Below, in pieces: positions 1-17,787 of a stretch of DNA of 20,792 bases (position 1 is the first letter of the stretch; each line of letters opens with the position of its first letter). Under the pieces are notes generated by a model. The model had not been told where the DNA came from. It was given only the letters and a program-made list of their open reading frames with translations, and ran no database searches. Source of the stretch: a virus; IMG/VR virus record IMGVR_UViG_3300030090_006110, positions 13,790 to 34,581 of that record; one strand, written 5' to 3'. The position numbers and the translations under genes were made by a program.

Positions 1-3000
1 AAGGTCGATATTCTTCCGCTGGAGCATCTGGATCTTGGATAAACTTTATGTCAGGTCTTATGTCTCTGCCTGGAGTTTCCATTACTCTTACAAATCTTCT
101 TACCTTATTAACCGAGTCTCTTCTTTTTCTCTTTATTGTTGGAGACTGTCCAGATCCAATTCCCGTTTGAGTAAATGCATTGTAATAATATTCAATTACC
201 GGATTTGATGGATCTGCATTTTCAAATGGTCCAGCGTAATCTTGATCTGGAACACCACCATACACAGTGCCGTTTAAGTTATCCATGTCAGCAAAATCAG
301 GAGCAGAGGATGTCCAATAGTCTCCGGAGAAATCATAACTTGACATTGATTCTGCTAAGAATGCATTAGTTGTCATCTGGTAAATTAAATATGCAAACTC
401 ATCAATAGAAGGAACATATGGATTAAAGAATGTTGCCTCTAGTAATTCTCTATAATTAACTTCGTCAAAGTTGTTATCAGTTTTATATTCAGGACTAAGA
501 AGATTATATAATTCAACTCCATATGAATTATCATTTCCATGATGTCCTCTTAGTTTATCTTCAAGATCATCTTGCCATATTGTATCTTCCAACATATGCG
601 AATGAACTACTAGGCCTCTCTCTGAAGGATAGTCAAATATCTGATCATCATCATGTGCCGGAACACCCTCTCTCCATGCATTGTCGGTTACGATTTCCCG
701 AAGATCTTCCGGTGCATCACAGCCATCATTATTTCCGTTTCTTAAAGCATAAGTGTTCGTATATGGATTATCATTCCAAGTGTGGTTTGTAGTTCCGTCT
801 TCTATGAGATCCCATGCATTGTTGCCAGAATAGGACCACCACCCGTAGGTATTCCAATAACCATCCGACTTACGAGTCAGTGCCGGTCCGAAATACGCGT
901 CTGTGCTGCTAAGATCCTGCGTCGAATTATAATCGTTCTTGCCCCAAACTTTAGATTGCGGTACTCCATCAGTTTCGTCGAAGAAAGAATCTCGACTTGA
1001 AACAAAGATGTGCCAAGAAACTCTGTCATCTCCAACAGGACATTGTGAACATACATTAGTTGGACATCCACTTTCATCACACGCGAGGCCCGGATAATGT
1101 TCACAAAGGCCATACATGCCTGTTTGCTGTTTCAAAGCACATTCCCCGGAGGTAAGGTTTTCTACACAATCTGTATTGTATTCACAACAACACGCACCCG
1201 GAAGATCTTCTTGACTATCATCAATACAACATTCGATTGATGGATCGGTGCATCTAGAGGCAATGCCTTGGAATATTCCTCCTGCTCCAGCACAGGTTTG
1301 AGGTCCAACCTCTTCACAGCCGTCAGGGAAGCAACAAGCACCTGTTGTGTCTATACAACAATCTACTTGCTCACATGCTGCATACTCTTCATAGAAAGTT
1401 CCTCCAGCATTTTCGCATTCCTCTTCAGACAATACCAATCTACACAATCCGCCGAGGCAGCACACTCTGGTTTCATCACAAACAATACATTCTTCATCCA
1501 CCACCGCTGCACAAGTTCCGGGGCAACTTCCGCCCTCTTCCCAATCTGTTCCACCTAAAGCATAACATGATTCTTCATCATAGTTGGTTAGGCAGTTAAG
1601 CATCTGATTTCCTACTGGAACATTGAAGTCAAAACAACATCTTCCTAAAGGTTTATTTTGTGCCTGTTCTGCACAGTTACACTCATCACATTGCTCACAC
1701 ATTGTTTCTGATGCAGAAGGATTGCTATAAATTATTCCATCTATAACTTCAGTTCCGAAACAAGGAATCCAACCATCTGGATAACTATACTCTTCTGTCA
1801 ACGAACTTGGATTCCATCTGACTATGTTCTGGCATTCTGGTTTGCCGCTGGCATTTCCATCCCCAACTGCACGTTGTATTTCCTCGAATGAATTTGCATA
1901 CTCACAGAATACATTTCCACTTAAGCAATAACAACCTATCCACTTTTCCTGAGTATCCGGCACACCTTCTTGGTTGCAGTGTTTAACGTCATATCCTCTC
2001 CAGATTGATCCTAACGCCGTGCATGTGTCCTCATTGCAATAGCTGCATATTGTTCTTGCATTACACTCGCTGTCCATATGACAACAAGATCCCCATTCGG
2101 TGCAAGTATTTGAACCACATGAATTAGTTCCGCATACTGTATTGACTCCCTTGAACGTAGTGGAATAACTTTCGTCTTTATTCCCGAGATAAGAACACTG
2201 TCGTTCTGTTAATTGAATACAATCTACGCACGGCGCTCCCTCATAACTGAAACAACATGCTCCGAGTGGAGGACTTGGACAATCACAGGGATAGTTATTA
2301 CAAGACCAACTGGTATCATCACAGCTTGCGTCGTTTACAAAATATCCAAAGAATTCTTCACATTCCTTTTCAGTTGTTTGAATGCAACCATTCATGGTAC
2401 AACATGCACCATCATTTCCTATACAACCAGTATCTTTGCAAAGAGTCTCAGTAAAGAATTTAGATCCTTCGAGTGCGTCACATTCCTTTGCTGTAATGTA
2501 ATCTCTACAGCCATTTCCGTCCTCGAAGTAAGAATCATGACAACATGCACCTATGTTATCTTCATTGTAAGTATATTCAGTATTTTCTTTAAAACCTATT
2601 ACTGGATTTAATGCGTACCATCTAAACTCTGTGTCTGTTATTGGTTTCCTGATAAAGTGTAAAATATCCACTGAGCCGTAGTCTTCGTTGTTTATATCTG
2701 ACTTGGTGAATTTAGTTTCTTTCCAAGTTCCATATTGATTTGCTTCAGGGAAAATCGGGAACTTCTCAGAAGCATTTGAAGGATCTCCATGATCCCCATA
2801 TTCTCCAAATATTTCATAATCATAATTGATTACTCCAGAATAAGGAGAGTCGGGATCAATGTTTCTGTGATTTCCTGCATCATGCAGAATAAGAGTAAGA
2901 TGCTGAACAATATCATGTGTTACTCCAGTTTCTACAGTAGGATCTGTCCCGTCACCATAAGAACCATATGGTGTGATAGGATCATCGATTGGCATAAAGA

Positions 3001-3934
3001 TTTGTCCGGTTGTTGGACCGCAATAAATCTTTTGAATATTACCATCTTTCAATGAAAGTTGAGTGTTAACTCCGCCGTCAAGATCTGATTCGAATCCGAT
3101 TGGATAAGCAGTATAACCATCATGATGACCGTGTCTCTTAATTATTTCTCTATGATCAATTAGTCTTGCAGTTAAGGCTTCATGATATGCTGATGCGTTC
3201 GATGGAACAGGCCAAGCACTCGCATTCCAGAAAGTATCGGTCGCACCATCACCATATGTAATTCCACTCTGGTATAGAAGTTCCCCAGTCAAACCCATGT
3301 TAACACCATCTGCTGCATTTGCAGATAAACCGCCTATGTGGAGAGTGTGATCATTGGAACCATGTATGTGAATGTCACCTTCAGATTCTAACGTCTTGAA
3401 AGTAACTTGATTATGTAATAGCGGATCCCCTGCTTCCCAATCTTTTGATCCGTCATATGTAAAAGTATTTCCATGTAATATGGATATTCCGCCAAGATTA
3501 ACAATCTTCACAGGTCCAGTTTGTCCTGTTGCTCCAGTTTCTCCTCGAATATCAGCGACGACGCCATTTTGAATATTCATCCCAACATCTGGACTTGGAA
3601 CTTCTAAAGTGAAACCGCCGCCTGTTGATGCCGTTCCTAAGAACAAAAGCAATCTATATTCTGAAGTTATGCCAGTAACACCTGCATACTCATAAAATTC
3701 AGGATTAAAAGTTCCGCCGGTTGGAGATAATGAATTTGGACCGCAGTAACCAAAACCTATTGAAACTGCGCCTTGAGCGCCAGTGGGCCCGGTTGTTCCC
3801 GTACCACCGCATACTCCTGTTGCTCCTGTCCCTGAAGCAAGACAAACTCCACTAACGCAATCGGGACCACAATCACCAGTAGGACCAGTTGCACCGGTCG
3901 GACCTAGAATCATAATATGGGCACTACTACTCAT
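1..3934 (-). CDS. Collagen-like, cysteine-repeat virion fibre protein (3' end outside window)
   Basis: This frame has no stop from the ATG at 3934 to the window edge, giving 1311 visible codons. The start follows an AAGGA Shine-Dalgarno in the 14-base gap after the previous gene. Residues 11-55 are collagen-like G-x-x with GPTG/GATG units, and a short second stretch lies at 131-141. Residues 142-300 look like a beta-rich fibre, with histidine-rich IHIHG and KRHGHHDG segments. Residues 462-944 hold eight cysteine-rich repeats beginning GACC (or GSCC, GRCC, VCC), with about 70 cysteines between 461 and 966. Residues 970-1311 are an acidic, aromatic-rich domain I do not recognise, ending in a basic patch (KRKRR at 1268-1272). 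Its place after the baseplate and fibre genes, and its N-terminus resembling the neighbouring collagen-like protein, suggest an adhesin exposed on the tail or particle. Function is inferred; the reading frame is certain. Confidence 0.85.
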   Translation of the reverse strand, partial: MSSSAHIMILGPTGATGPTGDCGPDCVSGVCLASGTGATGVCGGTGTTGPTGAQGAVSIGFGYCGPNSLSPTGGTFNPEFYEYAGVTGITSEYRLLLFLGTASTGGGFTLEVPSPDVGMNIQNGVVADIRGETGATGQTGPVKIVNLGGISILHGNTFTYDGSKDWEAGDPLLHNQVTFKTLESEGDIHIHGSNDHTLHIGGLSANAADGVNMGLTGELLYQSGITYGDGATDTFWNASAWPVPSNASAYHEALTARLIDHREIIKRHGHHDGYTAYPIGFESDLDGGVNTQLSLKDGNIQKIYCGPTTGQIFMPIDDPITPYGSYGDGTDPTVETGVTHDIVQHLTLILHDAGNHRNIDPDSPYSGVINYDYEIFGEYGDHGDPSNASEKFPIFPEANQYGTWKETKFTKSDINNEDYGSVDILHFIRKPITDTEFRWYALNPVIGFKENTEYTYNEDNIGACCHDSYFEDGNGCRDYITAKECDALEGSKFFTETLCKDTGCIGNDGACCTMNGCIQTTEKECEEFFGYFVNDASCDDTSWSCNNYPCDCPSPPLGACCFSYEGAPCVDCIQLTERQCSYLGNKDESYSTTFKGVNTVCGTNSCGSNTCTEWGSCCHMDSECNARTICSYCNEDTCTALGSIWRGYDVKHCNQEGVPDTQEKWIGCYCLSGNVFCEYANSFEEIQRAVGDGNASGKPECQNIVRWNPSSLTEEYSYPDGWIPCFGTEVIDGIIYSNPSASETMCEQCDECNCAEQAQNKPLGRCCFDFNVPVGNQMLNCLTNYDEESCYALGGTDWEEGGSCPGTCAAVVDEECIVCDETRVCCLGGLCRLVLSEEECENAGGTFYEEYAACEQVDCCIDTTGACCFPDGCEEVGPQTCAGAGGIFQGIASRCTDPSIECCIDDSQEDLPGACCCEYNTDCVENLTSGECALKQQTGMYGLCEHYPGLACDESGCPTNVCSQCPVGDDRVSWHIFVSSRDSFFDETDGVPQSKVWGKNDYNSTQDLSSTDAYFGPALTRKSDGYWNTYGWWSYSGNNAWDLIEDGTTNHTWNDNPYTNTYALRNGNNDGCDAPEDLREIVTDNAWREGVPAHDDDQIFDYPSERGLVVHSHMLEDTIWQDDLEDKLRGHHGNDNSYGVELYNLLSPEYKTDNNFDEVNYRELLEATFFNPYVPSIDEFAYLIYQMTTNAFLAESMSSYDFSGDYWTSSAPDFADMDNLNGTVYGGVPDQDYAGPFENADPSNPVIEYYYNAFTQTGIGSGQSPTIKRKRRDSVNKVRRFVRVMETPGRDIRPDIKFIQDPDAPAEEYRP
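1103..2551 (-). repeat. Array of eight GACC-type cysteine repeats (protein level)
   Basis: Within the left-end fibre protein, units start at residues 462, 509, 558, 615, 764, 824, 865 and 913. Each begins with a CC pair, usually GACC, followed by a cysteine a few residues on, then an E-C or similar pair, often a GG-x-F/W or F/W-G segment, and a closing cysteine. Units are about 30-44 residues. Units 4 and 5 are separated by about 100 residues of irregular cysteine-rich sequence. The repeats are diverged in sequence and do not look like recent tandem DNA duplications. Similar GACC-x-C-x-EC repeats occur, as I recall, in secreted proteins of some environmental bacteria such as planctomycetes. 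Confidence 0.8.
3770..3904 (-). repeat. Collagen-like G-x-x stretch
   Basis: Residues 11-55 of the left-end protein are built from GPTG, GATG and GTTG units broken by short cysteine-containing segments (DCGPDC, VCGG). Collagen-like stretches in phage fibres usually form trimeric rods. The cysteines inside it are uncommon and could cross-link the trimer, which is inference. Confidence 0.75.
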
Positions 3935-3948
3935 TTACTAATCCTTAA

Positions 3949-5142
3949 CTAGATTGGTTGTGGGAAGTCAAATGGACTTTTCCCTTCGCCTCTAACATAA
4001 AAACCATACCATTCATTTCTTCCTGATCCGATATCTTCCGTTCCAATACTTATGAACTGTATAATATCTATTCCGTTTGTTAACATCGGTTGTGCATTAA
4101 AAGGGAATTTCCAATTTTTAGGAAACACTTCATCATAGGAATATAAAATAAATTCACCTTCCTCATTTGTGCAATCTGTTCTAATTTTTCTAGAGCCGTT
4201 GTTATCTGCATTTTCTAATAACATTGTAAATCCTAAAGAGGTATTTTTACCAAATGCATTTTCATATTCATTTACATTTCCCTGATAACCAGACGTATCT
4301 ACCACTCTGATAAAAGGTCTTTCTGATTCGGAAGGAATGTAACCAAAATATTTTCTATAATCATCAAGTGGTTTGATTACCCAATAATTGCCTTTTGATT
4401 TATTAGCTTTTGCAGCATCAAGAGATAATAGATCCATAGGATTAATTTTATAAACGAAAGTGTTTGTGTCGCATACCCATTCCGATGGAGATATTCTGCC
4501 AGAAACTTCATCATATTTTTTAGTCGTTACACTTAAAGCAAAGGTAGGACCTGGATAATACTTTGTAAGGGTTGCTCCACATAAACCAGTTCCTCCTCCA
4601 TTATTTTGGAAGAATAGCAACTCCCCTGTTGTTCCCTGTGGCACCTGAGCGACATTTTCAGAATTATATCCAATTTTAATTACTGATCCAGCATAAACTT
4701 GTCTTCCGTCAGAGTCCGTCGTATACTTATCTTCTTCTGTTACAACAACTCCACCGCCGCCAGTCAGTCCTCTTAGATATAAGGTTCCTTCGGTCGATTC
4801 CGCAAAGAAAGATCCACCTGTAACCTGTCCAACATTTTCGCCATATAAATGGTAAATCGATTCACCAGTTGGACCTCTAAAGAATCCTCCGTCTGATGTT
4901 TGACCTCCTGCGTATTGAACAATGAGATGATGAGCGTTTCCTCCAGTGCTTGTATATGTCACACCGATAATGTGCGGTCCTGTAGAACCAGTTGGACCTG
5001 TTGCACCAGTGGGACCAGTTGATCCTGTATGACCAGTTGCTCCTGTAGCAACACTAGCACTTCCTGTATGACCAGTTGGTCCTACAGGCCCAATTTCAAA
5101 AGGATGGGCGCTAACTGTGTTTACTAGGGAAGGAAAACTCAT
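3949..5142 (-). CDS. Collagen-like tail fibre protein, 397 aa
   Basis: The ATG at 5142 follows AAGGA with 9 bases of spacing in a 15-base gap after the tail-collar gene. Residues 18-57 are a collagen-like stretch of GPTG, GHTG, GATG and GSTG units. Residues 58-190 are glycine-rich and beta-like, with further short GPTG and GGGG loops. Residues 200-397 are a more ordinary globular domain with many aromatic and charged residues (for example the YRKYFGYIP segment near 262-270). I do not recognise that C-terminal domain; its position at the end of a collagen rod suits a receptor-binding or capping head. Its N-terminus (SAH, then IGPVGPTG) resembles that of the next gene (SSAH, then ILGPTG), so the two may be paralogous at the attachment end. 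Fibre assignment is likely; the exact role is unknown. Confidence 0.85.
   Translation of the reverse strand: MSFPSLVNTVSAHPFEIGPVGPTGHTGSASVATGATGHTGSTGPTGATGPTGSTGPHIIGVTYTSTGGNAHHLIVQYAGGQTSDGGFFRGPTGESIYHLYGENVGQVTGGSFFAESTEGTLYLRGLTGGGGVVVTEEDKYTTDSDGRQVYAGSVIKIGYNSENVAQVPQGTTGELLFFQNNGGGTGLCGATLTKYYPGPTFALSVTTKKYDEVSGRISPSEWVCDTNTFVYKINPMDLLSLDAAKANKSKGNYWVIKPLDDYRKYFGYIPSESERPFIRVVDTSGYQGNVNEYENAFGKNTSLGFTMLLENADNNGSRKIRTDCTNEEGEFILYSYDEVFPKNWKFPFNAQPMLTNGIDIIQFISIGTEDIGSGRNEWYGFYVRGEGKSPFDFPQPI
4972..5091 (-). repeat. Collagen-like G-x-x stretch
   Basis: Residues 18-57 of the 397-aa fibre consist of near-perfect glycine triplets using P, T, H, S and A at the other positions, with one interruption (SASVAT). 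Such short stretches are typical of trimeric rods in phage fibres. Confidence 0.8.
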
Positions 5143-5157
5143 ATATTAAAGTCCTTC

Positions 5158-6666
5158 CTATTCTGTGTTGTCGATCTTGAGAATTCCAGAATCGTTATAT
5201 ACTTCTTGATATTCTGTGGTTAGTGAATCTGTTGGCAAACCAGTCAACTTAAGTTGTTTAACTTCCAACTTATCAATTAACGAAGCGTATGCAGTTGGAT
5301 CAACTCTCACTATCCAATTAACCGTCATATATGGTGGTAAGTTAGATTGTTTCAACGCCCATCCAAATTCTAAATCGATAGGAGTTCCAAACTTATCAGC
5401 AAGTCCTAAGTTTCCTCCACCGCCGTCTTCGTTTTCTTTTGCAGAACCAGTAAGTCTGAAATCACGATGACCGCCATATGTTCCTACAACATCAGGCTGT
5501 GTGTCACCAAAATCATCATCAAATCTAACTGGTTTTTCTTGACCTCCAAGTAAACTTCTTCCTCTTAAATCAGGAGGCAACACAGAATATACTCCAGGCG
5601 TAACGTCACCAGTATAATTTAAAGCAGAATATTCCCCTTGACCTCTTGAAGTTATTATGACTGATGTTCCAGTAGTGCTATGTTCAAATTCTGCTAATGT
5701 TTGTACTGGAGAAAATTCTTTATCAATTTCATCGACTTCACTTCCTCTAGTTGTGGAATTTTGTTTTTCATAAAAATTAGAATTTTCACTGTAAGGAATT
5801 AAATCTCCAAGGAAAGTATTATCCCAAGTCTGCTTGACATAAACTTCAGTTGTAATGCTATCAGTGATAGACACAGTTGCTACTACAATTCCGGAAATAG
5901 TTCTTATATTATTTCCTTGTCCTATCACTTGTCTTACTTTATCTCCCACAGCGGGAGTAGCTTTTAGATTTAATCTCTCTATCCATCCATATTTTTTACC
6001 GACTGCGGAATAGTATTCAGGGTATGTGGTAATATTGAAACCCGGAATTTGATTAGAATCTAAATACCCCTCTCCATCACAATATGCCCACCCAGTTGGA
6101 ACCGCAGTCTTTTCTCCAAGATACGCTTGAATTGTTCCGGGAGGAGTTAAGTTTCCAAGAGATACTGCAATATTTCCTCCGAGTAAACTGCCAACATAAT
6201 TTGTCACACAGCCAAAAATACGATCATTGGCATCATGTGCAATTCGAGTCATAACAGGCTTTGCAACCCACCCTGTTGTAGTGGGCCTTTCGGTTGTCAT
6301 CCACCCAGCAGTATAACCACTTAGGAAATAAACATCATCTTGTGTTGCTCCCGGAGCAAGAATGCCTGTGGTGTTGCTAAAGAAACTAGTCATGTTAACA
6401 ATACCACCGACACACAATTCAAAATCATTTGAACCTATAACTTGAGAAACAATACCAACTACTTCTGCATTGTAAGCATTGTTTGCTTGTGCGGCAGTGT
6501 AACCATAAGTATGACCATCCAATGCACTGTTCCATCGAAGAACGGTTCCAATAGTGAAGCCGTGATTTGCTTGATGCACGTTGACTGCAATTTTACTGGA
6601 CGTTGCAGCATTATTGTCAGTAAGACAAACATGAGGTTGTAAACTTGAAGAATTTGTTATTGCCAT
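5158..6666 (-). CDS. Tail-collar domain fibre protein, 502 aa
   Basis: The ATG at 6666 follows a GGAG Shine-Dalgarno with 8 bases of spacing. Residues 30-165 are a beta module (HGFTIG, EVVGIVS, VYFLS, VAKPVM) that also occurs twice in the preceding fibre. Residues 175-201 match the phage tail-collar signature: PPGTIQAYLG, then GWAYCDGEGY. The second half of the collar signature, LPPDLRGRSLLGG, is at 363-375, followed by GGH at 398-400 and LPPYMTVNWIVRV at 443-455. In typical collar proteins only about 25-40 residues separate CDG from PDLRGR; here about 165 do, including an inserted block near 227-360. The last 40 residues (from about 463) look like a short helical or coiled tail. By family it would be a short tail fibre or collar protein that contacts the host surface; it could equally be a receptor-tip subunit. 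Confidence 0.88.
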   Translation of the reverse strand: MAITNSSSLQPHVCLTDNNAATSSKIAVNVHQANHGFTIGTVLRWNSALDGHTYGYTAAQANNAYNAEVVGIVSQVIGSNDFELCVGGIVNMTSFFSNTTGILAPGATQDDVYFLSGYTAGWMTTERPTTTGWVAKPVMTRIAHDANDRIFGCVTNYVGSLLGGNIAVSLGNLTPPGTIQAYLGEKTAVPTGWAYCDGEGYLDSNQIPGFNITTYPEYYSAVGKKYGWIERLNLKATPAVGDKVRQVIGQGNNIRTISGIVVATVSITDSITTEVYVKQTWDNTFLGDLIPYSENSNFYEKQNSTTRGSEVDEIDKEFSPVQTLAEFEHSTTGTSVIITSRGQGEYSALNYTGDVTPGVYSVLPPDLRGRSLLGGQEKPVRFDDDFGDTQPDVVGTYGGHRDFRLTGSAKENEDGGGGNLGLADKFGTPIDLEFGWALKQSNLPPYMTVNWIVRVDPTAYASLIDKLEVKQLKLTGLPTDSLTTEYQEVYNDSGILKIDNTE

Positions 6667-6682
6667 TTATTGGACTCCGTTA

Positions 6683-9600
6683 TTAGTCTATACTTTCACT
6701 TACTTCTGTTGGTAGAGCATTGTTATATTCAGCGTCAGCAACATAGTGAACTACTACATTATCTAGGGGATTCGCACCATAGAAAATATTAATTCTTAGA
6801 CCAGCCGGACTTCCTGAAGTGCATCCAATATTTTCGGCATTTGCATTATTTATCCTATTAATTCCGAGAATATCTGTGGTGCCTGCGGCATACCTCAAAT
6901 CTCTTCCTATATCTGCATTAAAGCCTTCATTTATAATTCCAGAAGGAGAATACAACGTACACGATTCTGGCGTTTTTCTCATCGATCGGTCAAACTGATG
7001 TATGTGAGTCTTAGATGCAGGAACTATAAAGTGAATTCCAGATGGATTCGGTAAACCATTTTCGATTGTGTTTGTTCCCGGAATATCACCATAATCATAA
7101 CTTGTCTGATAGAACTCTTTACATTTCTTCAACTCTGTCTTTTCGTCCACACGATCAAAGAGAGTAGAGAAATTACTTCTTTCTAATTTAAATTGCGACA
7201 GGTGAAGATTATGATTAAAGTAAATATTCTTTTCTGTGCCATTAGGTAAAGAAGTAAGCTGTGTATAAATTCCTAGAGATGAGAAATGATCTCCACTAAA
7301 TCCATGAGTGATTCCATGATTTGAACCAGAGGCACCAGACTCGTTACTTATTTCAGGAACGAAGAATGCATACTGATATTTTTGCCAGTTTGGAGTAACT
7401 TGGAAATCTGTAATTGGAGTTATGATTTCATTGGCAGTTATTCCTCTAGCATCGAGTGCATCTTGACCAGTTGCGCCGGGAACACACCCAGTTGTTCCCG
7501 TTAAGTTCTGAGTCCAAGCTAAGTGACATGTTCCAGTCGAACCACCCTTCGCGTAGAAAGATGCAGTCATGATATTTCCTGCATGTGAAGTTACATCTGG
7601 GAATCTTTGTTCCACCTTGCAATATTCGTTACTATTTGTTCCTCCGTGGAAATTAATCTTGCCACGAACGGTTGAATAATAAATTGGATGTCCCTCTACA
7701 TCTGTCTGTTTTCTATCAAAATCATCTCTTCTTAAAACGTAATCGAAAGTTCTATGTGTTCCAGAGCTTGCGCCGGTTCCATATAATTCCATTATGAGAG
7801 GATTGCCGGCATGAGAACCAGTTCCAGTCTGAGAAACTCTTAGCCATCTATCTGCAAAGTAAGTATGATCTGTTGCAGTATGACCACTAGCACCAGTTGT
7901 TCCTAAACCTCTTTGCCAAATTCCAAAATCGGGATTTGTGATAAAGTTTCTATTTACTCTTTCAGCGTTATCATAAGTAAATCCAGTTGCACCAGTTGGT
8001 CCTAGTAAATTAAGATCTAAACCAGGCTGTGCAGGTTCGGCACCTCTCTGACGAGTATCTCCCGCACCCATTGGATTGGTAACGAAGTCCGGACTGTCTG
8101 GATTCATGATAACTTTTGTTCCCGACAAAGCATCGAATACCTTTACAGACAATGATCCTTCTTGTGTCTTCGTTGCATTACCATTTGATCCTAAGAAATA
8201 AGTGCCAGGATTATCAAAGTTAGTAAAGTTGGAATCTAAAATCACTGTTCCTTGTGTGGTAATTTCCATAATTCCCAAAGCAGTGTCAATGAAACTTACC
8301 ATTCCAATTACATGTGACGTACTAAGCTCCACATTGCTTGCTAATTTCAAACCGGATGGATTGCCATCAGTTGTATCATAAGTAACAAGATTTCCTTTCG
8401 TAAACGCAGGATCGGAACCGTGGGTATATGTGTTCTGGAAGAAGATAGATCTTGATCCAGTCGATCCTCCAGAACAACCTGTAGGATTGTTATACTGACC
8501 TCTATAATTTAGAATGACGCCGCTATTTGTTCCTGTTGCAATCATCATTGGTTTGTTTATATTACCAGTAACGATTGGTTCCGTAGACTGTATTTTTCCT
8601 TGATCAGCTACTGCGGCTGAAACTGCTAAGAAGTAAACTTGTCCCGGAGTCAATCCAGATGCAGCACTTTCAATAATGATATCATTCCACGCTGAGTTTC
8701 TGGACTCTTCAAGCTCTCCTAAGAATGTTATATCGAAAGTATCTTTATCAATATATTTTGATACCATACCTAGAGCATCCGCGGCATAAATTCCATCGCC
8801 CGATTCTGTTTCAAAGTCTCCAGCAGCCGAAGCATATGTGTATCCGTTGACTGCATCATACCGGAGACAATGGCCGAAAGTAAATCCGTGATCTGTTTTT
8901 GTTACTCTCTTCTTATTAGAACCCTTGTAGATATTGACATAACCTTTATCATCGAATTCAAGAAGTCCGCCGGCCGTATTTCCTATAACTAGTGCGCCGG
9001 TTACGCCCTTAACTCCTCTCCAGGCCTGTCCAGTTACACCAGAAACTCCTCCACGACCATCAATATCCATCCAGTTAGCACGGGATAATGTAGGACCAAA
9101 GAATATTCTTACAACCCCACCTTCAGCCGAGTCTGTGTCTGCTGAGAACAGAAGATTTTTATAATCGTTTGTTGGACCACTGTAACCATAAGGACCGGAT
9201 GGATAATCTCCACCAGTGCTTCCGAAACGATATGTTCCTGCTGGACCTTCCCCGCCACCTGTTGTACCACAGAATACTTGATTGTGGATTAACTTACCTT
9301 CTAGCCACAATCCTTCTTTGGTTCTCCACATATTGTTTTTATGAATCCAATAAGGTCTATCAAAAACAAAAGCGTCATCTGGGTCAGCAGATGCACTCTC
9401 ATCTTCCAATAGCCCAATGCTTGCAGGATCAGGTCCAGTTGCATAACCTCCGATTATAAGTCCACTATAATCTCCAACAGAAGCCCCCGCTTCATTATGA
9501 TTTAATATTACTAAACTTTCATTTACATTAAAGTTGCCTGTAACTTTTCCGGGATTAGCTGTTCCACCAATGGTCGCATCACCAACTTTAAGAGATTTAC

Positions 9601-10027
9601 CAATGTAAACATTATTGCAAAATGTAGAGGTAGTTCTTAAAACATTACCAGAGAATGCATAAGCAGCAGTTCCTCCGGTTGATACACCAACCATCAATCC
9701 ATCGCCAGCGGTTGTTCCATAAACTTTTAACAAATTTAATTTTTCAATGATCTCATCATTTGTCTTGGTTCTCCAAGATTCAAACGTATCATTTAAACTA
9801 ACGATAGGAATCAAATAATCTCTATGCTGAACTGTCGCTGAAACTCCGGCCACAGCACTATATTGATCATAAGAGAAAACACCATACTCACTAGGATACT
9901 GGTTTCCTGTGCCTCCGGGTAAAAACCAAGGCGCAGTTAAACCAAAATTACCATCTCTATCCGAGTGGTTATAGGCCCATGTATATCCAGTGCAGCCTCC
10001 AAAATATCCTATGTTAGTAGTAGTCAT
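6683..10027 (-). CDS. Large modular tail fibre protein with carbohydrate-binding-like region, 1114 aa
   Basis: The ATG at 10027 follows AGGA; the preceding gene's stop is 6 bases upstream, so translation is probably coupled. Residues 76-103 (SLNDTFESWRTKTNDEI and on) match the N-terminal attachment motif that I recall from fibres of T4-like marine phages. Residues 104-360 are glycine-rich rod-like repeats. Residues 378-512 and 531-645 are two copies of a beta module beginning around HGF or HGSDPAF and containing VYFL/TYFL. A short GPTGATG hinge at 676-682 leads into residues 690-980, which have the hallmarks of a common phage fibre binding domain: NFITNPDFGIWQRG at 694-707, FADRW at 724-728, and the late KKCKEFYQT segment at 967-975. 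Residues 981-1114 form the tip. Probably an adsorption fibre recognising surface glycan; receptor unknown. Confidence 0.88.
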   Translation of the reverse strand: MTTTNIGYFGGCTGYTWAYNHSDRDGNFGLTAPWFLPGGTGNQYPSEYGVFSYDQYSAVAGVSATVQHRDYLIPIVSLNDTFESWRTKTNDEIIEKLNLLKVYGTTAGDGLMVGVSTGGTAAYAFSGNVLRTTSTFCNNVYIGKSLKVGDATIGGTANPGKVTGNFNVNESLVILNHNEAGASVGDYSGLIIGGYATGPDPASIGLLEDESASADPDDAFVFDRPYWIHKNNMWRTKEGLWLEGKLIHNQVFCGTTGGGEGPAGTYRFGSTGGDYPSGPYGYSGPTNDYKNLLFSADTDSAEGGVVRIFFGPTLSRANWMDIDGRGGVSGVTGQAWRGVKGVTGALVIGNTAGGLLEFDDKGYVNIYKGSNKKRVTKTDHGFTFGHCLRYDAVNGYTYASAAGDFETESGDGIYAADALGMVSKYIDKDTFDITFLGELEESRNSAWNDIIIESAASGLTPGQVYFLAVSAAVADQGKIQSTEPIVTGNINKPMMIATGTNSGVILNYRGQYNNPTGCSGGSTGSRSIFFQNTYTHGSDPAFTKGNLVTYDTTDGNPSGLKLASNVELSTSHVIGMVSFIDTALGIMEITTQGTVILDSNFTNFDNPGTYFLGSNGNATKTQEGSLSVKVFDALSGTKVIMNPDSPDFVTNPMGAGDTRQRGAEPAQPGLDLNLLGPTGATGFTYDNAERVNRNFITNPDFGIWQRGLGTTGASGHTATDHTYFADRWLRVSQTGTGSHAGNPLIMELYGTGASSGTHRTFDYVLRRDDFDRKQTDVEGHPIYYSTVRGKINFHGGTNSNEYCKVEQRFPDVTSHAGNIMTASFYAKGGSTGTCHLAWTQNLTGTTGCVPGATGQDALDARGITANEIITPITDFQVTPNWQKYQYAFFVPEISNESGASGSNHGITHGFSGDHFSSLGIYTQLTSLPNGTEKNIYFNHNLHLSQFKLERSNFSTLFDRVDEKTELKKCKEFYQTSYDYGDIPGTNTIENGLPNPSGIHFIVPASKTHIHQFDRSMRKTPESCTLYSPSGIINEGFNADIGRDLRYAAGTTDILGINRINNANAENIGCTSGSPAGLRINIFYGANPLDNVVVHYVADAEYNNALPTEVSESID
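8093..8896 (-). repeat. Two copies of a beta fibre module in the 1114-aa fibre
   Basis: Residues 378-512 and 531-645 share the order: HGF/HG.D..F, a G-x-L-R/V-x-Y strand, an A-rich turn, [VI][IL]GMVS, an acidic strand, a PGxxYFL strand, and a closing K-x-[MV]-x or KVIM strand. A third copy is at residues 30-165 of the next gene (6172-6579). Similar modules occur widely in phage fibres. Confidence 0.6.
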
Positions 10028-10033
10028 TTATTC

Positions 10034-10705: not shown

Positions 10706-10727
10706 CGCTTTCTCCTAACGGTTCTTT

Positions 10728-10735
10728 TATTTATC
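10728..10735 (-). promoter_or_regulatory. Candidate phage late promoter, GATAAATA
   Basis: The 35-base gap between the gp8-like gene and the DUF4815-like gene reads GATAAATA on the minus strand, one mismatch from the T4 late promoter core TATAAATA. It lies 22 bases before the start codon, and an AGGAG ribosome site lies between. It would start a transcript for the fibre genes. Confidence 0.5.
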
Positions 10736-10740
10736 TATTA

Positions 10741-12315
10741 TCAATACCCTGATGAACTTCTTCTTCCATCATTAGTAGGGTCTGGATCTTCTCCAATTAC
10801 TGCCCTAAATTGATAAGAACTTATTCCAGAAGTATATGAATCTGCATTTGTGATTTTGTTGACAAACAATACTTGAGAGTCGTCTCCCATTTTAATTCCC
10901 GGATCATCAACTGCTGTAATTTCAGTAAGATCTGTTGACGCACCTACTTTCTTTGCAGTTGTTGAGGTGTGCTTTCCGCTCCATGACAAACTTCCCGAAC
11001 CGGCAACCCTAGAAGATGCTAATGATGGCACCAAAGTAGTCTTGTCAAAAAGTTTATCGCCAACTGCAAATTTTTCATCAGCGTTGACAACTTCGACAAT
11101 AGTATTGTTTGAATTAGCCGCAACAACACTTCCAATATTTGTTTTACCTAAAGAGTTTGCTTGGGCGCTTGCAACTTTTTTACCTTTTGATACTACATTC
11201 GAGGCATTGACTGTAATTTTTGTTGTCATTCTTGTTGCAACATCTGCTTTTGTCGTTGCTGCAAAATTATTTCCGTCCGAATCTTTTAGATTCTTTACTA
11301 ATCTAATTTCATTAAAACCATCTGTCATATCAGTGATCTGTGCAAGTCTGCTGCTGTCAATAGAATATACTATCATAGCAGAGTCAGCATTGAGTAATGT
11401 TAACAAATCCATAGTCGGTGATATTACTGGATAAACAAAAGGAGCAATTACATCTCCATAGTTTGTATTGCCAAAAATATTATCAACGGTTTTATCAGAA
11501 GGGAATGATGGTTCTCCATAGCAGTACAAATTCTCAAAAGAATCTGAATATCCTTTTCCATGATGTTCAACATCAATTCTTCTTAGTCTATATCCATCCT
11601 CAGTTGAAATTGGAGAATTGCTGAAAAAATCCCACTTGACATCAAACGTGCATTCCTCATCCCCAGTTTCTAGAAATTCTATTCTTGGTTCAGAACTCCA
11701 TCTTATATTTTTTACAGCAGAGTCATTAACACTGAAACGAATTATACTACCAATTCTATTATTCCAATAATCCATCATTAGCTTAGTTAAATTAAGTTGA
11801 CTATTTGATGGTAGGTTTGGATTGTTGATTTCATCAACTGAAGGAACTGGAATCCATTTGTTTGTGTAAAATCTACTAAGATCTCCAGAAATTGAATACA
11901 AAAATTGCCATGTGTAATCATCTGCTGTTTTTATTGGGCTTATATCTGTCCCTGTTGGTGGTACAGTTGATATTCCGCCCTGATTATTATCAAGACACCA
12001 ATATACTCTTCTTACCCCATTGTCATTTACAACTGCATAGTAGTCTTTACCATCCATGTCTTTTGTGTTGTCCCAAGATTCAAAAACTCTTCTTTCCCAA
12101 CTAACATTTCTTGCTACAGATTTAAACCATGTATTATTTTCTTGTGATAGATTTACAGCTACAACACCATTTAATGTCCTAGCACTTTGAGTCGATCTAT
12201 AGTCTGGCTCATTAGTATTGTCTGAGGATTTTCCAAAGACAAGTGTGAGATTTTGATTTTTAAAATCTCTGGCAAAACTTTCTGACAATAATCCTGTTAG
12301 TCTTCTATAACTCAT
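10741..12315 (-). CDS. gp8: gp8-like baseplate wedge protein, 524 aa
   Basis: The ATG at 12315 sits 10 bases after the preceding stop, with an AGGT ribosome site. Residues 25-160 match the gp8 family pattern: FGKSS at 27-31, VYWCLDNNQGGIST at 104-117, then DDYTWQFLYSISGDLSRFYT at 132-151 and WIPVPS at 154-159. In T4, gp8 is a dimeric wedge component joining the inner wedge to the peripheral pins. T4 gp8 is 334 residues; this protein is about 190 longer. Part of the excess is a threonine, serine and alanine-rich beta block at about 365-475, followed by a family-like tail (GDDSQVLFVNKITNAD at 477-492, then SSYQFRAVIGEDPDP). It follows gp25, gp6 and a third wedge gene, as expected for wedge assembly. 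Family assignment is good; the insert is unexplained. Confidence 0.82.
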   Translation of the reverse strand: MSYRRLTGLLSESFARDFKNQNLTLVFGKSSDNTNEPDYRSTQSARTLNGVVAVNLSQENNTWFKSVARNVSWERRVFESWDNTKDMDGKDYYAVVNDNGVRRVYWCLDNNQGGISTVPPTGTDISPIKTADDYTWQFLYSISGDLSRFYTNKWIPVPSVDEINNPNLPSNSQLNLTKLMMDYWNNRIGSIIRFSVNDSAVKNIRWSSEPRIEFLETGDEECTFDVKWDFFSNSPISTEDGYRLRRIDVEHHGKGYSDSFENLYCYGEPSFPSDKTVDNIFGNTNYGDVIAPFVYPVISPTMDLLTLLNADSAMIVYSIDSSRLAQITDMTDGFNEIRLVKNLKDSDGNNFAATTKADVATRMTTKITVNASNVVSKGKKVASAQANSLGKTNIGSVVAANSNNTIVEVVNADEKFAVGDKLFDKTTLVPSLASSRVAGSGSLSWSGKHTSTTAKKVGASTDLTEITAVDDPGIKMGDDSQVLFVNKITNADSYTSGISSYQFRAVIGEDPDPTNDGRRSSSGY

Positions 12316-12325
12316 TTATTTACCT

Positions 12326-13849
12326 CTAATGGAATGCTGGGCATCCTCCACTATTTCCATTTGGAATGTTGGGAGATCCTGTACCAGTATTTAGGGAACT
12401 TAAGAACATAAAATCGCCAAGATTTATGTCTTTGAATGCAATTCCTTCAGGAACTTGGAAAGACCATGAATTCGGGTGATGATAAATTCTAAAGAAAGAC
12501 ATTCCAAGTTCTTCTGCTGCTGTTGCTCCAGTTCCACCTGAACCGCCTGCTGTATATCCCAGTGCCGCAAATTGATCCTGAGCGACCGCCAGTGCATTGT
12601 CCTCGAATGCTTGATGTGCTGTGGATCCATTCTCATTTTTATACCACATTGCGTCTGCATATGGGGCGGTTGTTCCTATACTTTGTGAATGATCTATTGT
12701 ATAAGTATTTCCAAGATATGGATTATAGCCGCAAGGATATAAATCCACTCCAAGGACATTATTTCTTAAATCCATAGTGGTTCCGAAACGATAAGCGGTA
12801 TAATTGCCTATGATTGGCTGTTCTACCGGGTATATATCTCCGGTGGTTCCCGGTTGAGGGATAGTTTCCCACACAGATCGATTTGCTCCAATGAAAGTTC
12901 CCGCTGGAGAAAATAGTTTCTTAACATAAGGAAGATAGTCATCAATTCTAGCTTCGGTGTCGAAAAGATATGAGTAGCTTTGCCAATATTTATTGTCATG
13001 TATTCTACTCAGTCCACTTAATGTTCCAACCTCATCATCATAATGAACTCCTTCTGGAGATCCCGGCGCACAGCCTGGTTTATCACATGGAGGATATATT
13101 TCATTTCCCTGAGCATCATAACTTCCTCCTGCCCAACAAGGCTCACCGGCAAGATTTGTCCAACAAGGCCCTGTTGCACAACTATTTTCTAAAGCAGAAA
13201 TTCCCGGATGCGGCTTAAATGGATATATTACATCACACTCTGCTGTTGATCCCCAATGATATGCAGTTGCTCCTGTGACTCCAGCAGACACGCCTCTATA
13301 TGGAGCTTCTGATAGTCTTAAAACATAAGCACTTGATTCGGTGACTGAAGAATCAGAATCAAAAAAGGTTCTGAGGAAATATTCTAAAGACTTTGGATTG
13401 CCTTTGTATTGATATAAATTTTTACAAGCAGACAAAAAGTTTCTTACGTCAGTTTTTCCTAAATCAGGTCTTAAGAAATCAACTAGAACTTCACCATCAT
13501 CGCCTTTAGTATAATCAAAGGTTTTATCTGGAAAGCCCTTAGCATAAATTTCTTTCATCAATTTTAAAACTGTGTCTGAAGTTTCATCAACATCAGTTAT
13601 TAATTCTTGCAATCCAACTTCTTGTTCTGATGCTAACCACTCATAGAATATTCTTATAAACTCTGTGAACTGAGGATATGACTCTTGGATATGACTAGGA
13701 AGTCTTGTGTCATTGAAAAAATTAACATATCTTTTTACTACTTGGTTATCATAAGAATCCTGAACGCCTTCAACAAAGCTATAAGCAATGTCATAGATAT
13801 TTCCAGCCGTTCCAGAATTTCCTCCAGTTCCAGTAGTAGTTAAAGTCAT
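12326..13849 (-). CDS. Baseplate wedge protein in gp7 position, 507 aa
   Basis: The ATG at 13849 follows GGGGA in a 10-base gap after gp6. Residues 1-16 are a loose T/G-rich leader. Residues 38-165 are helical and characteristic: LPSHIQESYPQFTEFIRIFY at 50-69, EWL at 70-72, then YQYKGNPKSLEYFLRTFFDS at 146-165. I recall this pairing from virion structural proteins of T4-like marine phages. Residues 283-320 (IHDNKYWQSYSYLFDTEARI, then KKLFSPAGTFIG) are a second conserved block. Between them, about 190-275, is a cysteine-, proline- and glycine-rich insert with CATGPCW and PPCDKPGC. The C-terminus (340-507) is beta-rich with a GGSGGTGAT loop near 435-443. Its place between gp6 and gp8 is that of T4 gp7, which bundles with gp25 and gp6, but T4 gp7 is about 1030 residues, so direct orthology is unproven. 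Confidence 0.72.
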   Translation of the reverse strand: MTLTTTGTGGNSGTAGNIYDIAYSFVEGVQDSYDNQVVKRYVNFFNDTRLPSHIQESYPQFTEFIRIFYEWLASEQEVGLQELITDVDETSDTVLKLMKEIYAKGFPDKTFDYTKGDDGEVLVDFLRPDLGKTDVRNFLSACKNLYQYKGNPKSLEYFLRTFFDSDSSVTESSAYVLRLSEAPYRGVSAGVTGATAYHWGSTAECDVIYPFKPHPGISALENSCATGPCWTNLAGEPCWAGGSYDAQGNEIYPPCDKPGCAPGSPEGVHYDDEVGTLSGLSRIHDNKYWQSYSYLFDTEARIDDYLPYVKKLFSPAGTFIGANRSVWETIPQPGTTGDIYPVEQPIIGNYTAYRFGTTMDLRNNVLGVDLYPCGYNPYLGNTYTIDHSQSIGTTAPYADAMWYKNENGSTAHQAFEDNALAVAQDQFAALGYTAGGSGGTGATAAEELGMSFFRIYHHPNSWSFQVPEGIAFKDINLGDFMFLSSLNTGTGSPNIPNGNSGGCPAFH

Positions 13850-13859
13850 TTACTATCCC

Positions 13860-15584
13860 CTAATTGATTCTATTTATTTCAATGTCAGGATCCTTAATCG
13901 TTAAAACTAAATTGTGCTTTGCACTTATCAAGTTTAAACGAGGATCAATTTGAATAGTAAAATTTTCTATTGCGCCAAGATTGTTAATTTGCACTCTTCC
14001 ATTTTCATAATTTACAGATCCGATGACTCCCATATTATTATCAGTTGATGTGTCCCACATTTCTATTTTTCCGAGACCATCATCATATAATCTAACAAGG
14101 TAAACAGTTCCATCTCTAATCACTCTAAAAGGAGATAGACTTTCTACAACGGAGGCAGGTTGTCCCTCTGGATCTCTGATTGCATTCTTAAACGGTATGG
14201 TTAATGAATACACAGGCTCATCTTCTGTTGCAGAATATGTTCTAGATAAATGCATTTGAATATTTTCGCCCACAATACCACTATCAATCTCCGACAGTTC
14301 TGCAATATAATCAGATATTCTGAATGAATCGTTGAATGTTCTTAAAGGATAATTTCTTGTGTATTGTGTGATAAGAGCGTCTATTTCTTCTACAGTTTTA
14401 TATGAAAGATCCGCATCAAATGTTAACTGTCCTGATAATCTAATATCAATTAAAACTGGATCAAGAAATTCTGGAACAATACTAACTAATGACTTTTCAT
14501 TACAGAGACCTAAAATTTCCTCTCTTTGAGAATCTGCGATTAGTCTTCTATTGTTTGATACTGCTGATACAAAAACTCTTCCGTAGTTTGGAGGATCATT
14601 TTCTTCTCCTCCCCATACACTTGTTTGAATGCCTGTTCCCATTTGTTTTTCTATCAGAACCTCAAAATCTCCCTTTGTGACTGCCCTTCCTTGAGTCTGA
14701 AAGAAAGATGGTGCGTTTTCTTTTATGCTTTCTAGTGTTTCTATTCCAGAGCCACCAACCGCAACCTTTCTTGTGGATAAAACTCCCACTCCATTTACTT
14801 GACTAACAAAAGAGGCACTATTATTAGAGTCTGCACCTGAAGTAACAAGATATTCAAATCTAATTTGGGATTGGTGTTCAGGAAGTTTTCCTAATACTCC
14901 ATCACCAAAATATACTTCATACCCCCCATCACTAGATCCTGTTAAATAATAAATTGAAGTTCCCGCAGTAAATCCACTAATGTTTCCAACAGAGTCATCT
15001 GCTTTTGACCATTCGATATAACCATTTCCTTCATCCACATGAACTTTTAATGTTGAAGTGTCTATCTCTGCATTTGGTATTTTAAACTTTTGATGTCTGA
15101 TCCCTCTATCGTAAAGAGTTCCAGCGACTCTATCCACTCTATTTCCTTGTAGCAAAGTAACCACTGTAGATCCATTCACATAATACGACTTGTCGGGTGT
15201 CCATTGATACCCGTTGCCCGTAAATAAATCTCCAAAGTTTATAGTTTGTCCTGTTCCGGTAACAACTACTTCTGCTCTAGGTGATCTTCTTGATGATGGA
15301 ACATAAGATAAAGGCTTTACTAACGAGTTGATTGATTCTCTTTTTGCCGCTGTGTCAAGAAATGACTCATTTGCAATCATGTTTGCATAAAAACCATACA
15401 TCGTAGAATTGTAAGATAACACATCTAACAAAGTAGAAAGTGCTGATGCCTCAAAATCATAGTCATTAAATGTGTCAGTTGCCTTTAAGTAATCTTTGAT
15501 TGAACTTTTAATATCAGTAAAATCTAACTTCCCTAAAGAAAGAATAGGATTCTGGGATCCAGTATATCCTGTTAAATATGCCAT
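13860..15584 (-). CDS. gp6: gp6-like baseplate wedge protein, 574 aa
   Basis: Only one base separates this ATG from the gp25 stop, and its ribosome site (AAAGGA) lies inside gp25, so the two are almost certainly translationally coupled. Residues 20-110 carry the gp6/gpJ-type signature: LDFTDIKSSIKDYLKATDTF, then YDFEASALSTLLDVLSYNS, then NESFLDTAAKRESINSLVKP and LSYVPSSRRSPRA. Residues 220-285 (GGYEVYFGDGVLGKLPEHQS, then IRFEYLVTSGADSN) are the expected beta domain, followed by RAVTKGDFEVLI at 298-309. The C-terminal part is beta-rich. In T4, gp6 (660 aa) forms the continuous inner ring of the baseplate as dimers bound to gp25 and gp7. The protein is a little shorter than T4 gp6, normal for marine relatives. 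High confidence. Confidence 0.92.
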   Translation of the reverse strand: MAYLTGYTGSQNPILSLGKLDFTDIKSSIKDYLKATDTFNDYDFEASALSTLLDVLSYNSTMYGFYANMIANESFLDTAAKRESINSLVKPLSYVPSSRRSPRAEVVVTGTGQTINFGDLFTGNGYQWTPDKSYYVNGSTVVTLLQGNRVDRVAGTLYDRGIRHQKFKIPNAEIDTSTLKVHVDEGNGYIEWSKADDSVGNISGFTAGTSIYYLTGSSDGGYEVYFGDGVLGKLPEHQSQIRFEYLVTSGADSNNSASFVSQVNGVGVLSTRKVAVGGSGIETLESIKENAPSFFQTQGRAVTKGDFEVLIEKQMGTGIQTSVWGGEENDPPNYGRVFVSAVSNNRRLIADSQREEILGLCNEKSLVSIVPEFLDPVLIDIRLSGQLTFDADLSYKTVEEIDALITQYTRNYPLRTFNDSFRISDYIAELSEIDSGIVGENIQMHLSRTYSATEDEPVYSLTIPFKNAIRDPEGQPASVVESLSPFRVIRDGTVYLVRLYDDGLGKIEMWDTSTDNNMGVIGSVNYENGRVQINNLGAIENFTIQIDPRLNLISAKHNLVLTIKDPDIEINRIN

Positions 15585-15585
15585 T

Positions 15586-16059
15586 TTATCTTGTCCTTTC
15601 TACTACGACTTCTACATTTCCTGATGAATTAGGATCATCCCCGTCTAAAACTTTTATATCATAGTTAAGTTGAACATTCAATTCGTTATTATCAGGATTT
15701 GGCCTTACAATGATATCATTGACTGCAATTCTTGGCTCATGTATACTTATCTGTCTCTTTATTTCTTCTACCAAATCATATATTGCCCATCCGTCATCTG
15801 GTTCAAATAGAAACTGTCGAAGATTACATCCAAAATCGGGAGCAAAAGCCTTTTCAAACGGATTAGTTAACAAGATATTTCTAACAGACTGATCTATAGA
15901 CGAACTATCATATCTTCTGACAATATCCCCCGAAAGTCCACTTTCTGTATATGATGGACTTGGACGAAAAATAAAAGATAGATCTGAGTAAATATATTCC
16001 TTTTCTTTTTCCGAATAAACCGTCTCTGTACCAGTATATCCTCTTCCGTATGATGGCAT
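15586..16059 (-). CDS. gp25: gp25-like baseplate wedge protein (GPW/gp25 family), 157 aa
   Basis: The ATG at 16059 follows AGGA with 7 bases of spacing and a candidate late promoter. The family pattern is clear: YSDLSFIFRPSPS at 24-36, DIVRRYDSSSIDQSVRNILL at 45-64, TNPFEKAFAPDFGCNLRQFL at 65-84, and the conserved IHEPRIAV stretch near 111-118. T4 gp25 is 132 residues and binds gp6 and gp7 in the wedge core, where it connects the baseplate to the sheath. The 22-residue N-terminal extension (starting MPSYGRGYTGTET) is longer than in T4 and shares a GYTG element with the next gene. Confidence 0.94.
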   Translation of the reverse strand: MPSYGRGYTGTETVYSEKEKEYIYSDLSFIFRPSPSYTESGLSGDIVRRYDSSSIDQSVRNILLTNPFEKAFAPDFGCNLRQFLFEPDDGWAIYDLVEEIKRQISIHEPRIAVNDIIVRPNPDNNELNVQLNYDIKVLDGDDPNSSGNVEVVVERTR

Positions 16060-16110: not shown

Positions 16111-17787
16111 CTAAGCAGTGAAATCATCATCAAAGCTAGGAATAGTATCATCGAAATCAAATTCTGGAAAACCAAAATCAAGAATATCAGTTCCTTCAAT
16201 CTCAGATGTTTCTTGGGTGCTTAGTGTAGTATTATCTCTAGCACAACTTACTGACATTTTGTATTCATTGTTACCACTCATAGTATGTTTTATTTTCGTT
16301 ACCAACCATTTGCCTCCGATGAGGTTTGGTGTTGGTGGATTATTCTCTTCGACACTTATAGCAGGGAAATTAATACTAATTACATCTCCTACTCTTAGGG
16401 TTAGATTACCAGCCGCTGTAAAATCTATCTCTTGTGAAAATAACATTGCCATTTGAGCTTTTCTTAAAAGTCTAGCTTTCAGCGGTGCATCCCAGTATCT
16501 AGCTCCCACACTTCTAACATACTCTAGATACTCTGGGTATTTTTCTCCGGTTTTTGGGAACTGACACTTTGTCATGTAATATGGTAAAGAATCATATGGA
16601 TCTGGAATACAACCACAAGCATCAGCGGTTAAACCTGTAGTCAAATAGTCACCATCTGTTAAAGTATTTTGAACCGGATCATATTCTGTATCTTCTTCAT
16701 GCTCACCTAGATTTTCATCTACAGTGGGACAACTAAACGTACCAATAATAGATTGATATGGTGGACCCTTAGTTTCCGAATTTGGAATTGAACCTGTAGC
16801 TCCTCCATATGGAGCAAAATAGTTTCCATAATCATTATCAATATTTTCTAACCACTCAGATGGAAGCCAACCGTACCACCAGTAATTATTTAAATCAACT
16901 CCGCTCCAGTCTGGGCCTAATACCGATTTTATCAATTCGCATTCCAGTGGAATTGCATTTATTTTTTCCTTTAATCCCTCACATGTATACTCATTGCAAT
17001 CATAAGTAAATCCACTATACCCACCTGATATTCCTTCTCCTACTCCAGAATCTCCGGCCCATAAAGGAGGCCATTCACTCCAATCTGGCGGATCCCAAGG
17101 TTCAAAGTATGGATCAAAATCAGGCAAACCTTGGGGGCCGTAATCAGGGAAACCGGGAGTGCCTGAAGGATCGTCTATTGGAGTCCAAGGATTTTCTGGT
17201 GTGCTGAATGGAAAATCTGCCATTAGATCATCTATTTCTGCCGATGGTGCAGAAGGAATAACATCGTCCTCTTCTTCTTGATTATGTCTTCTCAATCTAA
17301 GTTCATATTCTTTTTTAGATCTGCATATCTTGTAGATATCTTCGTATTCTTTTGCTTCATTTATTCTTTGTACGATAGGACCTCTGATTGAATTTCTTAT
17401 TTGAATCATTCTATTCAATTCTAGATCAGTATGAGTGTACCAAACATGTTCAGGATTGCCAACACCGAACGGACTAGAATAATTAAAACCATAACCAGTA
17501 AATTGTTTAAATAAAGGACCGTTTACTGGAAGAGCATTATCAGAAATATCATCCTCTTGATAATTAGTTTCAATATGAGTCCAAGTATTATAATCTGTAA
17601 AATGATCGTACTTGATTTCTTCTTTTTTGAATTGAGCTTCTATGTTTCTATTTGTTGGGACATAGTAATCAAGATACTTCAAATCGAACGCACAACCAGG
17701 TCTGGAAGGATTGTATGTAATTCCAGATGTTTTCCAATTCGGATTATCGGGGAAAATTGGTTCGGTTGAAAGATCTTGATATGGCAT
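16111..17787 (-). CDS. Probable baseplate hub-type protein with low-complexity insert, 558 aa
   Basis: The ATG at 17787 follows GGAG with 9 bases of spacing. Residues 1-165 mix aromatic loops with a helix (LELNRMIQIRNSIRGPIVQR at 122-141, then a charged stretch). About 170-265 is a low-complexity insert rich in P, D, W and G, for example PDFDPYFEPWDPPDWSEWPP at 222-241. Residues 350-410 have scattered cysteines. The C-terminal 430-517 resembles the terminal domain of gp27/late-control-D hub proteins: RLLRKAQMAMLFSQEIDF at 439-456, NLTLRVGDVISINFP at 461-475, GGKWLVTKIKHTM at 491-503, YKMSVSCARD at 509-518. Hub proteins form the central tube-tip trimer. The match is by pattern memory and position next to gp25; a tail-spike or hub-associated role is an alternative. 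The tail 520-558 is acidic. Confidence 0.6.
   Translation of the reverse strand: MPYQDLSTEPIFPDNPNWKTSGITYNPSRPGCAFDLKYLDYYVPTNRNIEAQFKKEEIKYDHFTDYNTWTHIETNYQEDDISDNALPVNGPLFKQFTGYGFNYSSPFGVGNPEHVWYTHTDLELNRMIQIRNSIRGPIVQRINEAKEYEDIYKICRSKKEYELRLRRHNQEEEDDVIPSAPSAEIDDLMADFPFSTPENPWTPIDDPSGTPGFPDYGPQGLPDFDPYFEPWDPPDWSEWPPLWAGDSGVGEGISGGYSGFTYDCNEYTCEGLKEKINAIPLECELIKSVLGPDWSGVDLNNYWWYGWLPSEWLENIDNDYGNYFAPYGGATGSIPNSETKGPPYQSIIGTFSCPTVDENLGEHEEDTEYDPVQNTLTDGDYLTTGLTADACGCIPDPYDSLPYYMTKCQFPKTGEKYPEYLEYVRSVGARYWDAPLKARLLRKAQMAMLFSQEIDFTAAGNLTLRVGDVISINFPAISVEENNPPTPNLIGGKWLVTKIKHTMSGNNEYKMSVSCARDNTTLSTQETSEIEGTDILDFGFPEFDFDDTIPSFDDDFTA

Follow-up and report, generated by a model that had tools for sequence, protein, structure and literature searches.

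Tandem six-cysteine GACC units in tail-cluster proteins of uncultivated phages: a probable relative of the disulfide module of animal iRhoms

What is an array of cysteine-rich repeats doing in a protein encoded among phage tail genes, and in what state would it be built into a virion? The question is raised by the window analysed here, a stretch of 20,792 nucleotides spanning bases 13790-34581 of the 34,581-base IMG/VR viral record IMGVR_UViG_3300030090_006110. Its leftmost frame, orfA, comprises a collagen-like N-terminus, a middle region, eight GACC units and a C-terminal region. A sequence-only reading had described eight cysteine repeats with about 70 Cys in about 500 residues (about 14%), and recounting agrees: there are 66 Cys among the 483 aa of residues 462-944 (window 1103-2551), or 13.7%, with 11 Cys in the other 828 aa of the frame. 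His is scarce in the same region (3 in 483 aa). Five of the eight units start with a literal GACC (residues 462, 509, 558, 865 and 913) and three with the variants GSCC (615), GRCC (764) and RVCC (823). Seven G[ASR]CC motifs occur in orfA, whereas 20,000 composition shuffles average 0.13 and never exceed 4. A profile of the unit (below) detects seven units at i-E <= 0.0041, the eighth (residue 913) being weak (i-E 0.32). Just beyond the left edge of the window a run of N (contig positions 13777-13788) separates orfA from the next gene; where orfA ends and its neighbour starts is uncertain. The features of orfA are as follows.

2..3934, minus strand: orfA, 1311 codons in the window, 3′ end cut by the window edge
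3773..3904, minus strand: collagen-like Gly-X-Y-type stretch (GPTGATGPTG...), residues 11-54; weak Pfam Collagen match, PHROG tail fibre 5.6e-5
2423..2551, minus strand: unit 1, aa 462-504, unit HMM i-E 4.8e-7
2309..2410, minus strand: unit 2, aa 509-542, unit HMM i-E 2.2e-8
2117..2263, minus strand: unit 3, aa 558-606, unit HMM i-E 5e-4
1973..2092, minus strand: unit 4 (GSCC), aa 615-654, unit HMM i-E 1e-3
1517..1645, minus strand: unit 5 (GRCC), aa 764-806, unit HMM i-E 4e-3
1358..1462, minus strand: unit 6 (RVCC), aa 825-859, unit HMM 2.1e-10; in the first AlphaFold model
1244..1342, minus strand: unit 7 (GACC), aa 865-897, unit HMM 1.2e-8; in the first AlphaFold model
1118..1198, minus strand: unit 8 (GACCC), divergent, aa 913-939, unit HMM i-E 0.32

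The Pfam Collagen match is below the cut-off. GACC units are also found in orfK, at the opposite end of the window, and in five more frames of the same contig past the left edge of the window.

The unit HMM has 37 positions and was built from units of the window's contig and of other viral contigs. Across the 475 copies that align to it six Cys are near-invariant, in the consensus G-A-C1-C2-x3-G-x-C3-x2-T-T-x3-C4-x3-G-G-x-[FYW]-x-G-x-G-T-x-C5-x4-C6, and adjacent units are typically spaced by about 44 residues. Judged by this conservation, the unit is a genuine domain. It has no family in Pfam, NCBIfam or PHROGs. Searches with the whole regions of orfA and orfK gave zero matches among 50,697 GenBank phages, and single-unit and tandem queries gave nothing better than E 2-9. 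This absence is informative, because a consensus query run at the same database size recovers 64/119 IMG/VR loci at E<1. Exact window peptides retrieved no related loci; finding them took the degenerate pattern GACCxxDGxC, which was run on IMG/VR. Among the matches listed (at least 119 viral loci), 83/119 contain a unit, 60 of them at least three, and a homolog of a window tail gene is present in 30/83 unit-bearing loci compared with 1/36 loci lacking a unit. Near-identical contigs, compared for changes in copy number, were mostly identical where they overlap.

No description of GACC repeats was found in the papers searched. The 'cysteine-rich repeats' of eukaryotic rusticalin-type proteins (PMC7379824) are set apart by description, their glycine/proline pattern being described differently. 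The sequence-only reading had associated such repeats with secreted bacterial proteins and not with T4-type fibres, and within the collections searched no described phage fibre has them. Its suggestion of a new class of phage module stands in part: the unit has no library family, but it is not the oddity of one fibre, being widespread in uncultivated phage contigs that include at least one non-T4 phage, and its fold has a precedent in animal iRhoms. The repeats are undescribed in the collections searched, yet common in the uncultivated phages of IMG/VR. What the libraries and papers searched did not contain is this unit as a part of phage tails, and the connection with iRhom; Cys-rich adhesin repeats are already a known kind.

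The remaining genes of the window place orfA in a tail cluster.

3949..5142, minus strand: orfB, collagen-like fibre protein, PHROG collagen-like minor tail 2.9e-6
5158..6666, minus strand: orfC, tail-collar-like protein, Pfam Collar 8.3e-5, just under the cut-off; conserved beside GACC genes
6683..10027, minus strand: orfD, 1114 aa, conserved across GACC phages
10741..12315, minus strand: orfF, baseplate wedge subunit, PHROG 438
12326..13849, minus strand: orfG, baseplate wedge, Pfam PF23786, over the cut-off
13860..15584, minus strand: orfH, gp6-like baseplate wedge subunit, PHROG 219, 5e-114
15586..16059, minus strand: orfI, gp25-like baseplate wedge subunit, PHROG 261
16111..17787, minus strand: orfJ, tail protein, PHROG 350
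17826..20792, minus strand: orfK, 988 aa, 5′ end open, 81 Cys, three clear GACC units
18660..18755, minus strand: orfK GACC unit, aa 680-711, unit HMM 5e-9
18294..18398, minus strand: orfK GACC unit, aa 799-833, unit HMM 5e-9
18126..18242, minus strand: orfK GACC unit, aa 851-889, unit HMM 2e-6
20433..20453, minus strand: DNSGSMS in orfK, vWA/MIDAS-like, motif only, putative vWA

orfD has no Pfam match and no match among the 50,697 GenBank phages. The gp6-like, gp25-like and other wedge-like baseplate genes lie upstream of the GACC and collagen-like genes on the orfA side. The order tail protein, gp25, gp6, wedge, orfD, orfC, collagen-like/GACC genes is common to the six T4-like contigs, the window's own included (G000, G001, G003, G016, G022 and G024), that were read fully or almost so. 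Moreover, a collagen-like stalk and GACC units occur on one chain in orfA and in ORFs of G003, G001, G016 and G022, and the giant GACC proteins of T4-like contigs carry up to 18 units each. The 157-kb contig G003 encodes a T4-type terminase, portal, major head protein, sheath, helicase and DNA polymerase, and its GACC units are restricted to the tail cluster; G023 encodes a portal, sheath and terminase of T4 type. The conserved order after the baseplate genes and the collagen-like N-termini thus bear out the proposed phage-fibre setting in a T4-type phage, and support reading the orfA-type proteins as probable tail-appendage proteins of T4-like phages. The label 'tail fibre' rests on synteny and the collagen-like N-termini, no domain for receptor binding having been identified. 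The module also occurs outside T4-like phages: G012 (IMGVR_UViG_3300042140_000185; 63% GC), which has an HK97-type head and a tape measure, encodes a GACC protein of 1026 aa that adjoins tail genes.

Two known tail systems offer a comparison. The collagen-like tail-fibre proteins of tailed phages (PHROG 6320, 5073 and 30509) share with the GACC proteins an N-terminal collagen-like stalk and a place after the baseplate genes, although none of these PHROGs covers the GACC units. In the T4-type baseplate/short-tail-fibre cluster gp6/gp25-like wedge genes lie directly upstream, as in the window. T4 carries gp9-gp12 at this place in the tail cluster, whereas in the GACC phages it is occupied by giant Cys-rich proteins. 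In G024 a 549-aa ORF upstream of the baseplate genes (positions 7593-9242 of locus L263) has 17.5% Cys and no GACC unit, and is possibly a different Cys-rich module.

The GACCxxDGxC pattern was also searched against an 84,980-species prokaryote collection. Among the matches listed, 40 cellular loci have two or more units, and 33/40 are from Planctomycetota, mostly Phycisphaerae. Two cellular genomes have 90 and at least 148 pattern matches, and cellular GACC ORFs carry up to 19 units. When genomes were drawn evenly from the class of one Phycisphaerales genome, 8/61 gave matches at E<=1e-12, that genome included, compared with 0/56 at E<=1e-6 in the class of a Klebsiella. The Planctomycetota proteins, unnamed in Pfam, share the tandem six-Cys unit with the phage copies, but their N-termini often resemble signal peptides and their segments nearly always contain six Cys, whereas the phage copies lack such signals and often have a seventh Cys. 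By a simple hydrophobicity rule, signal-like N-termini are present in 31/50 cellular GACC ORFs and 0/69 viral ones (controls 16% and 2.8%). The repeats thus have relatives in secreted-looking Planctomycetota proteins, in support of the sequence-only reading, which had named secreted bacterial proteins as a source of similar repeats. At two cellular loci (L205 and L175), stretches rich in DxNxN and resembling calcium-binding loops come after two units in which Cys4 and one Cys of the CC pair, taken to be Cys1, are absent.

What fold does the unit adopt? A profile built from 50 tandem unit pairs was run against all PDB sequences and matched only iRhom1 and iRhom2 (E 2.4e-5 to 7.5e-4), with 0 matches for the reversed profile. 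Alignment to an iRhom1 segment by hhalign gave 88.7% probability, against 1.9% for the reversed segment. In the opposite direction a single iRhom1 segment finds GACC ORFs weakly (best E 0.027), and therefore the link rests on the profile. A template-free AlphaFold2 model of orfA units 6-7 comprises two beta-hairpin/helix/strand modules (pLDDT 87.6) whose relative orientation is uncertain given a pTM of 0.55. Foldseek against the PDB returned three matches to this model, all iRhom (1.3-1.4 A over 40-42 columns, 42-43% identity, prob 0.85-0.99); E-values for the GACC models are 0.3-1.5 because the domain is short. A second template-free model, of units 1-2 (pLDDT 81.9), matched only iRhoms in the PDB, weakly (prob 0.25 and 0.06). 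No structural match to the GACC model was found in BFVD, and no rhomboid Pfam match in orfA, orfK or other GACC ORFs.

The iRhom homology domain (IRHD) of animal iRhom1/2 (PDB 9xy4, 9q7y, 9o58 and 8snl) is stapled by 8 disulfides (PMC11248996; also PMC12184519) and was reported to be without structural relatives (PMC11248996); two structured regions had been predicted in it earlier (PMC8233286). The Cys spacing CC-x-C-x-C-xGxF-x-C-x-C is common to the IRHD and the GACC unit, and iRhom has two stretches matching the unit, the first incomplete. The two differ in setting: the IRHD belongs to a membrane pseudoprotease that folds in the ER, where TM1 and TM2 flank it, whereas the GACC units are tandem repeats in phage proteins lacking export signals. 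Shared Cys spacing and modelled backbone fold support placing the GACC unit in the disulfide module family of the IRHD, so the fold is not unprecedented. A domain that uncultivated phages carry in hundreds of copies would thus have its only solved relative in iRhom, and would in turn give the fold a prokaryotic reference point.

Patterns of Cys loss give a view of the pairing. Of 886 distinct units, 15 lack Cys2 and 100 lack Cys6; 13 lack both, against 1.69 expected (Fisher 2e-11), where Cys6 was sought within nine residues after Cys5 and the units are not independent. This co-loss depends on the search distance past Cys5, because wider windows reach the next unit. Joint loss of Cys1 and Cys4 is seen in one unit by alignment and in a second by eye, and Cys5 is never lost among the 886. 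The co-losses therefore favour the pairs 2-6 and 1-4, leaving 3-5. Only pair 2-6 is statistically firm, as a prediction from sequence; pairs 1-4, which derives from one or two units, and 3-5 are more conjectural. Exactly six Cys are found in 241/264 cellular and 134/203 viral unit-to-unit segments. An odd count occurs in 62/203 viral segments, 60 of which have seven Cys (9/264 in cellular segments); the spare viral Cys may be free, or may form an inter-unit or cross-chain bond.

The sequence-only reading had proposed small disulfide-type domains, and the iRhom homology together with the paired loss uphold this. It had also allowed that the Cys bind metal, each unit being a zinc or iron-sulfur site. 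Because such a site can form in the reducing cytosol, no oxidation would be needed, and folding would be explained without export or a phage oxidase; in 19 contigs, most of them fragments, we found no DsbA match and no thioredoxin over the cut-off (one weak thioredoxin-like match is in G003). Nevertheless, Cys2 and Cys6 drop out together and leave the remaining four in place, which argues for paired cysteines over a metal site. Moreover, the sole structural relatives, and the only PDB matches of the tandem models, are the disulfide-bonded iRhom domains (PMC11248996), zinc-finger Pfam models match single members only (E 0.058-0.46), and the same unit occurs in secreted-looking cellular proteins. 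We therefore regard metal binding as very improbable.

If disulfides form, they might do so inside the cell, in an oxidising host cytoplasm or with the aid of a host enzyme. Folding of the large, disulfide-rich arrays would then precede virion assembly. The lack of a phage-encoded DsbA match in the 19 contigs speaks against this, as does the major head protein of G003, the closest match of which (61%) is from a Methylophilales phage; Methylophilales are not known to have an oxidising cytoplasm. Intracellular disulfides thus seem unlikely. It is also conceivable that the GACC proteins are effectors or decoys that are released, encoded beside the tail genes and forming no part of the virion, and several GACC ORFs of the cluster (e.g. 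positions 7302-9041 of the window's contig) have neither collagen-like stalks nor other structural hallmarks. This is hard to reconcile with the lack of signal peptides, with the joining of stalk and units on one chain and with the conserved order after the baseplate and collar genes, and we think it quite improbable.

We consider it probable, therefore, that the GACC units are disulfide-stapled tail-fibre/adhesin modules that are synthesised in reduced form in the cytosol and become oxidised when released. The domain itself, its six-Cys conservation, iRhom-like fold, Cys2/Cys6 paired loss, gene context and lack of signal peptides are supported computationally; oxidation on release and a structural or adhesive role of the arrays are what we infer from them. 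The relatives in cells and animals fold in oxidising compartments, and the difficulty raised earlier, of oxidation in a reducing cytoplasm, is a real one, since the lack of an export signal means that the phage chains are made and attached in the reducing cytosol. Tandem domains of about 37 residues (beta-hairpin, short helix, strand; six Cys) would be strung along giant tail-appendage proteins, after collagen-like fibre stalks and just downstream of the baseplate genes, and would most likely serve as rigid, protease-resistant spacer or adhesion arms for host attachment. The chains would be synthesised and assembled in a reduced state inside the cell, and lysis, by exposing the virion to oxygen, would lock the three-disulfide fold (predicted pairs 1-4, 2-6 and 3-5). 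The units may in this sense be the 'surface display' modules of the sequence-only reading. They would mark a T4-like phage lineage with unusual disulfide-rich tails, and they raise the question of how a virion part with dozens of disulfides matures when made in a reducing cytosol. A more speculative and rather doubtful proposal is that phage tail appendages, secreted proteins of Planctomycetota and animal iRhoms all share a single family of disulfide domains, and that phages use its redox dependence as a maturation switch, the arms being reduced in the cell and stiff and sticky only after lysis.

Lastly, vWA domains at G022:C1:12194-12664 and G010:C1:28426-28923 score over the Pfam cut-off in ORFs of two GACC contigs, and the G022 ORF, of 1695 aa, also carries 14 GACC units; these domains would fit an adhesive role. 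A vWA/MIDAS-like sequence at positions 9053-13816 of the window's contig is below the Pfam cut-off. The window's contig has no tRNA, and the cultured relatives are only distant. The 123-kb GACC phage contig G001 contains a tmRNA gene (positions 14699-15062 of locus L253), whose tag, ANTRAFAMAA, might point to a host.
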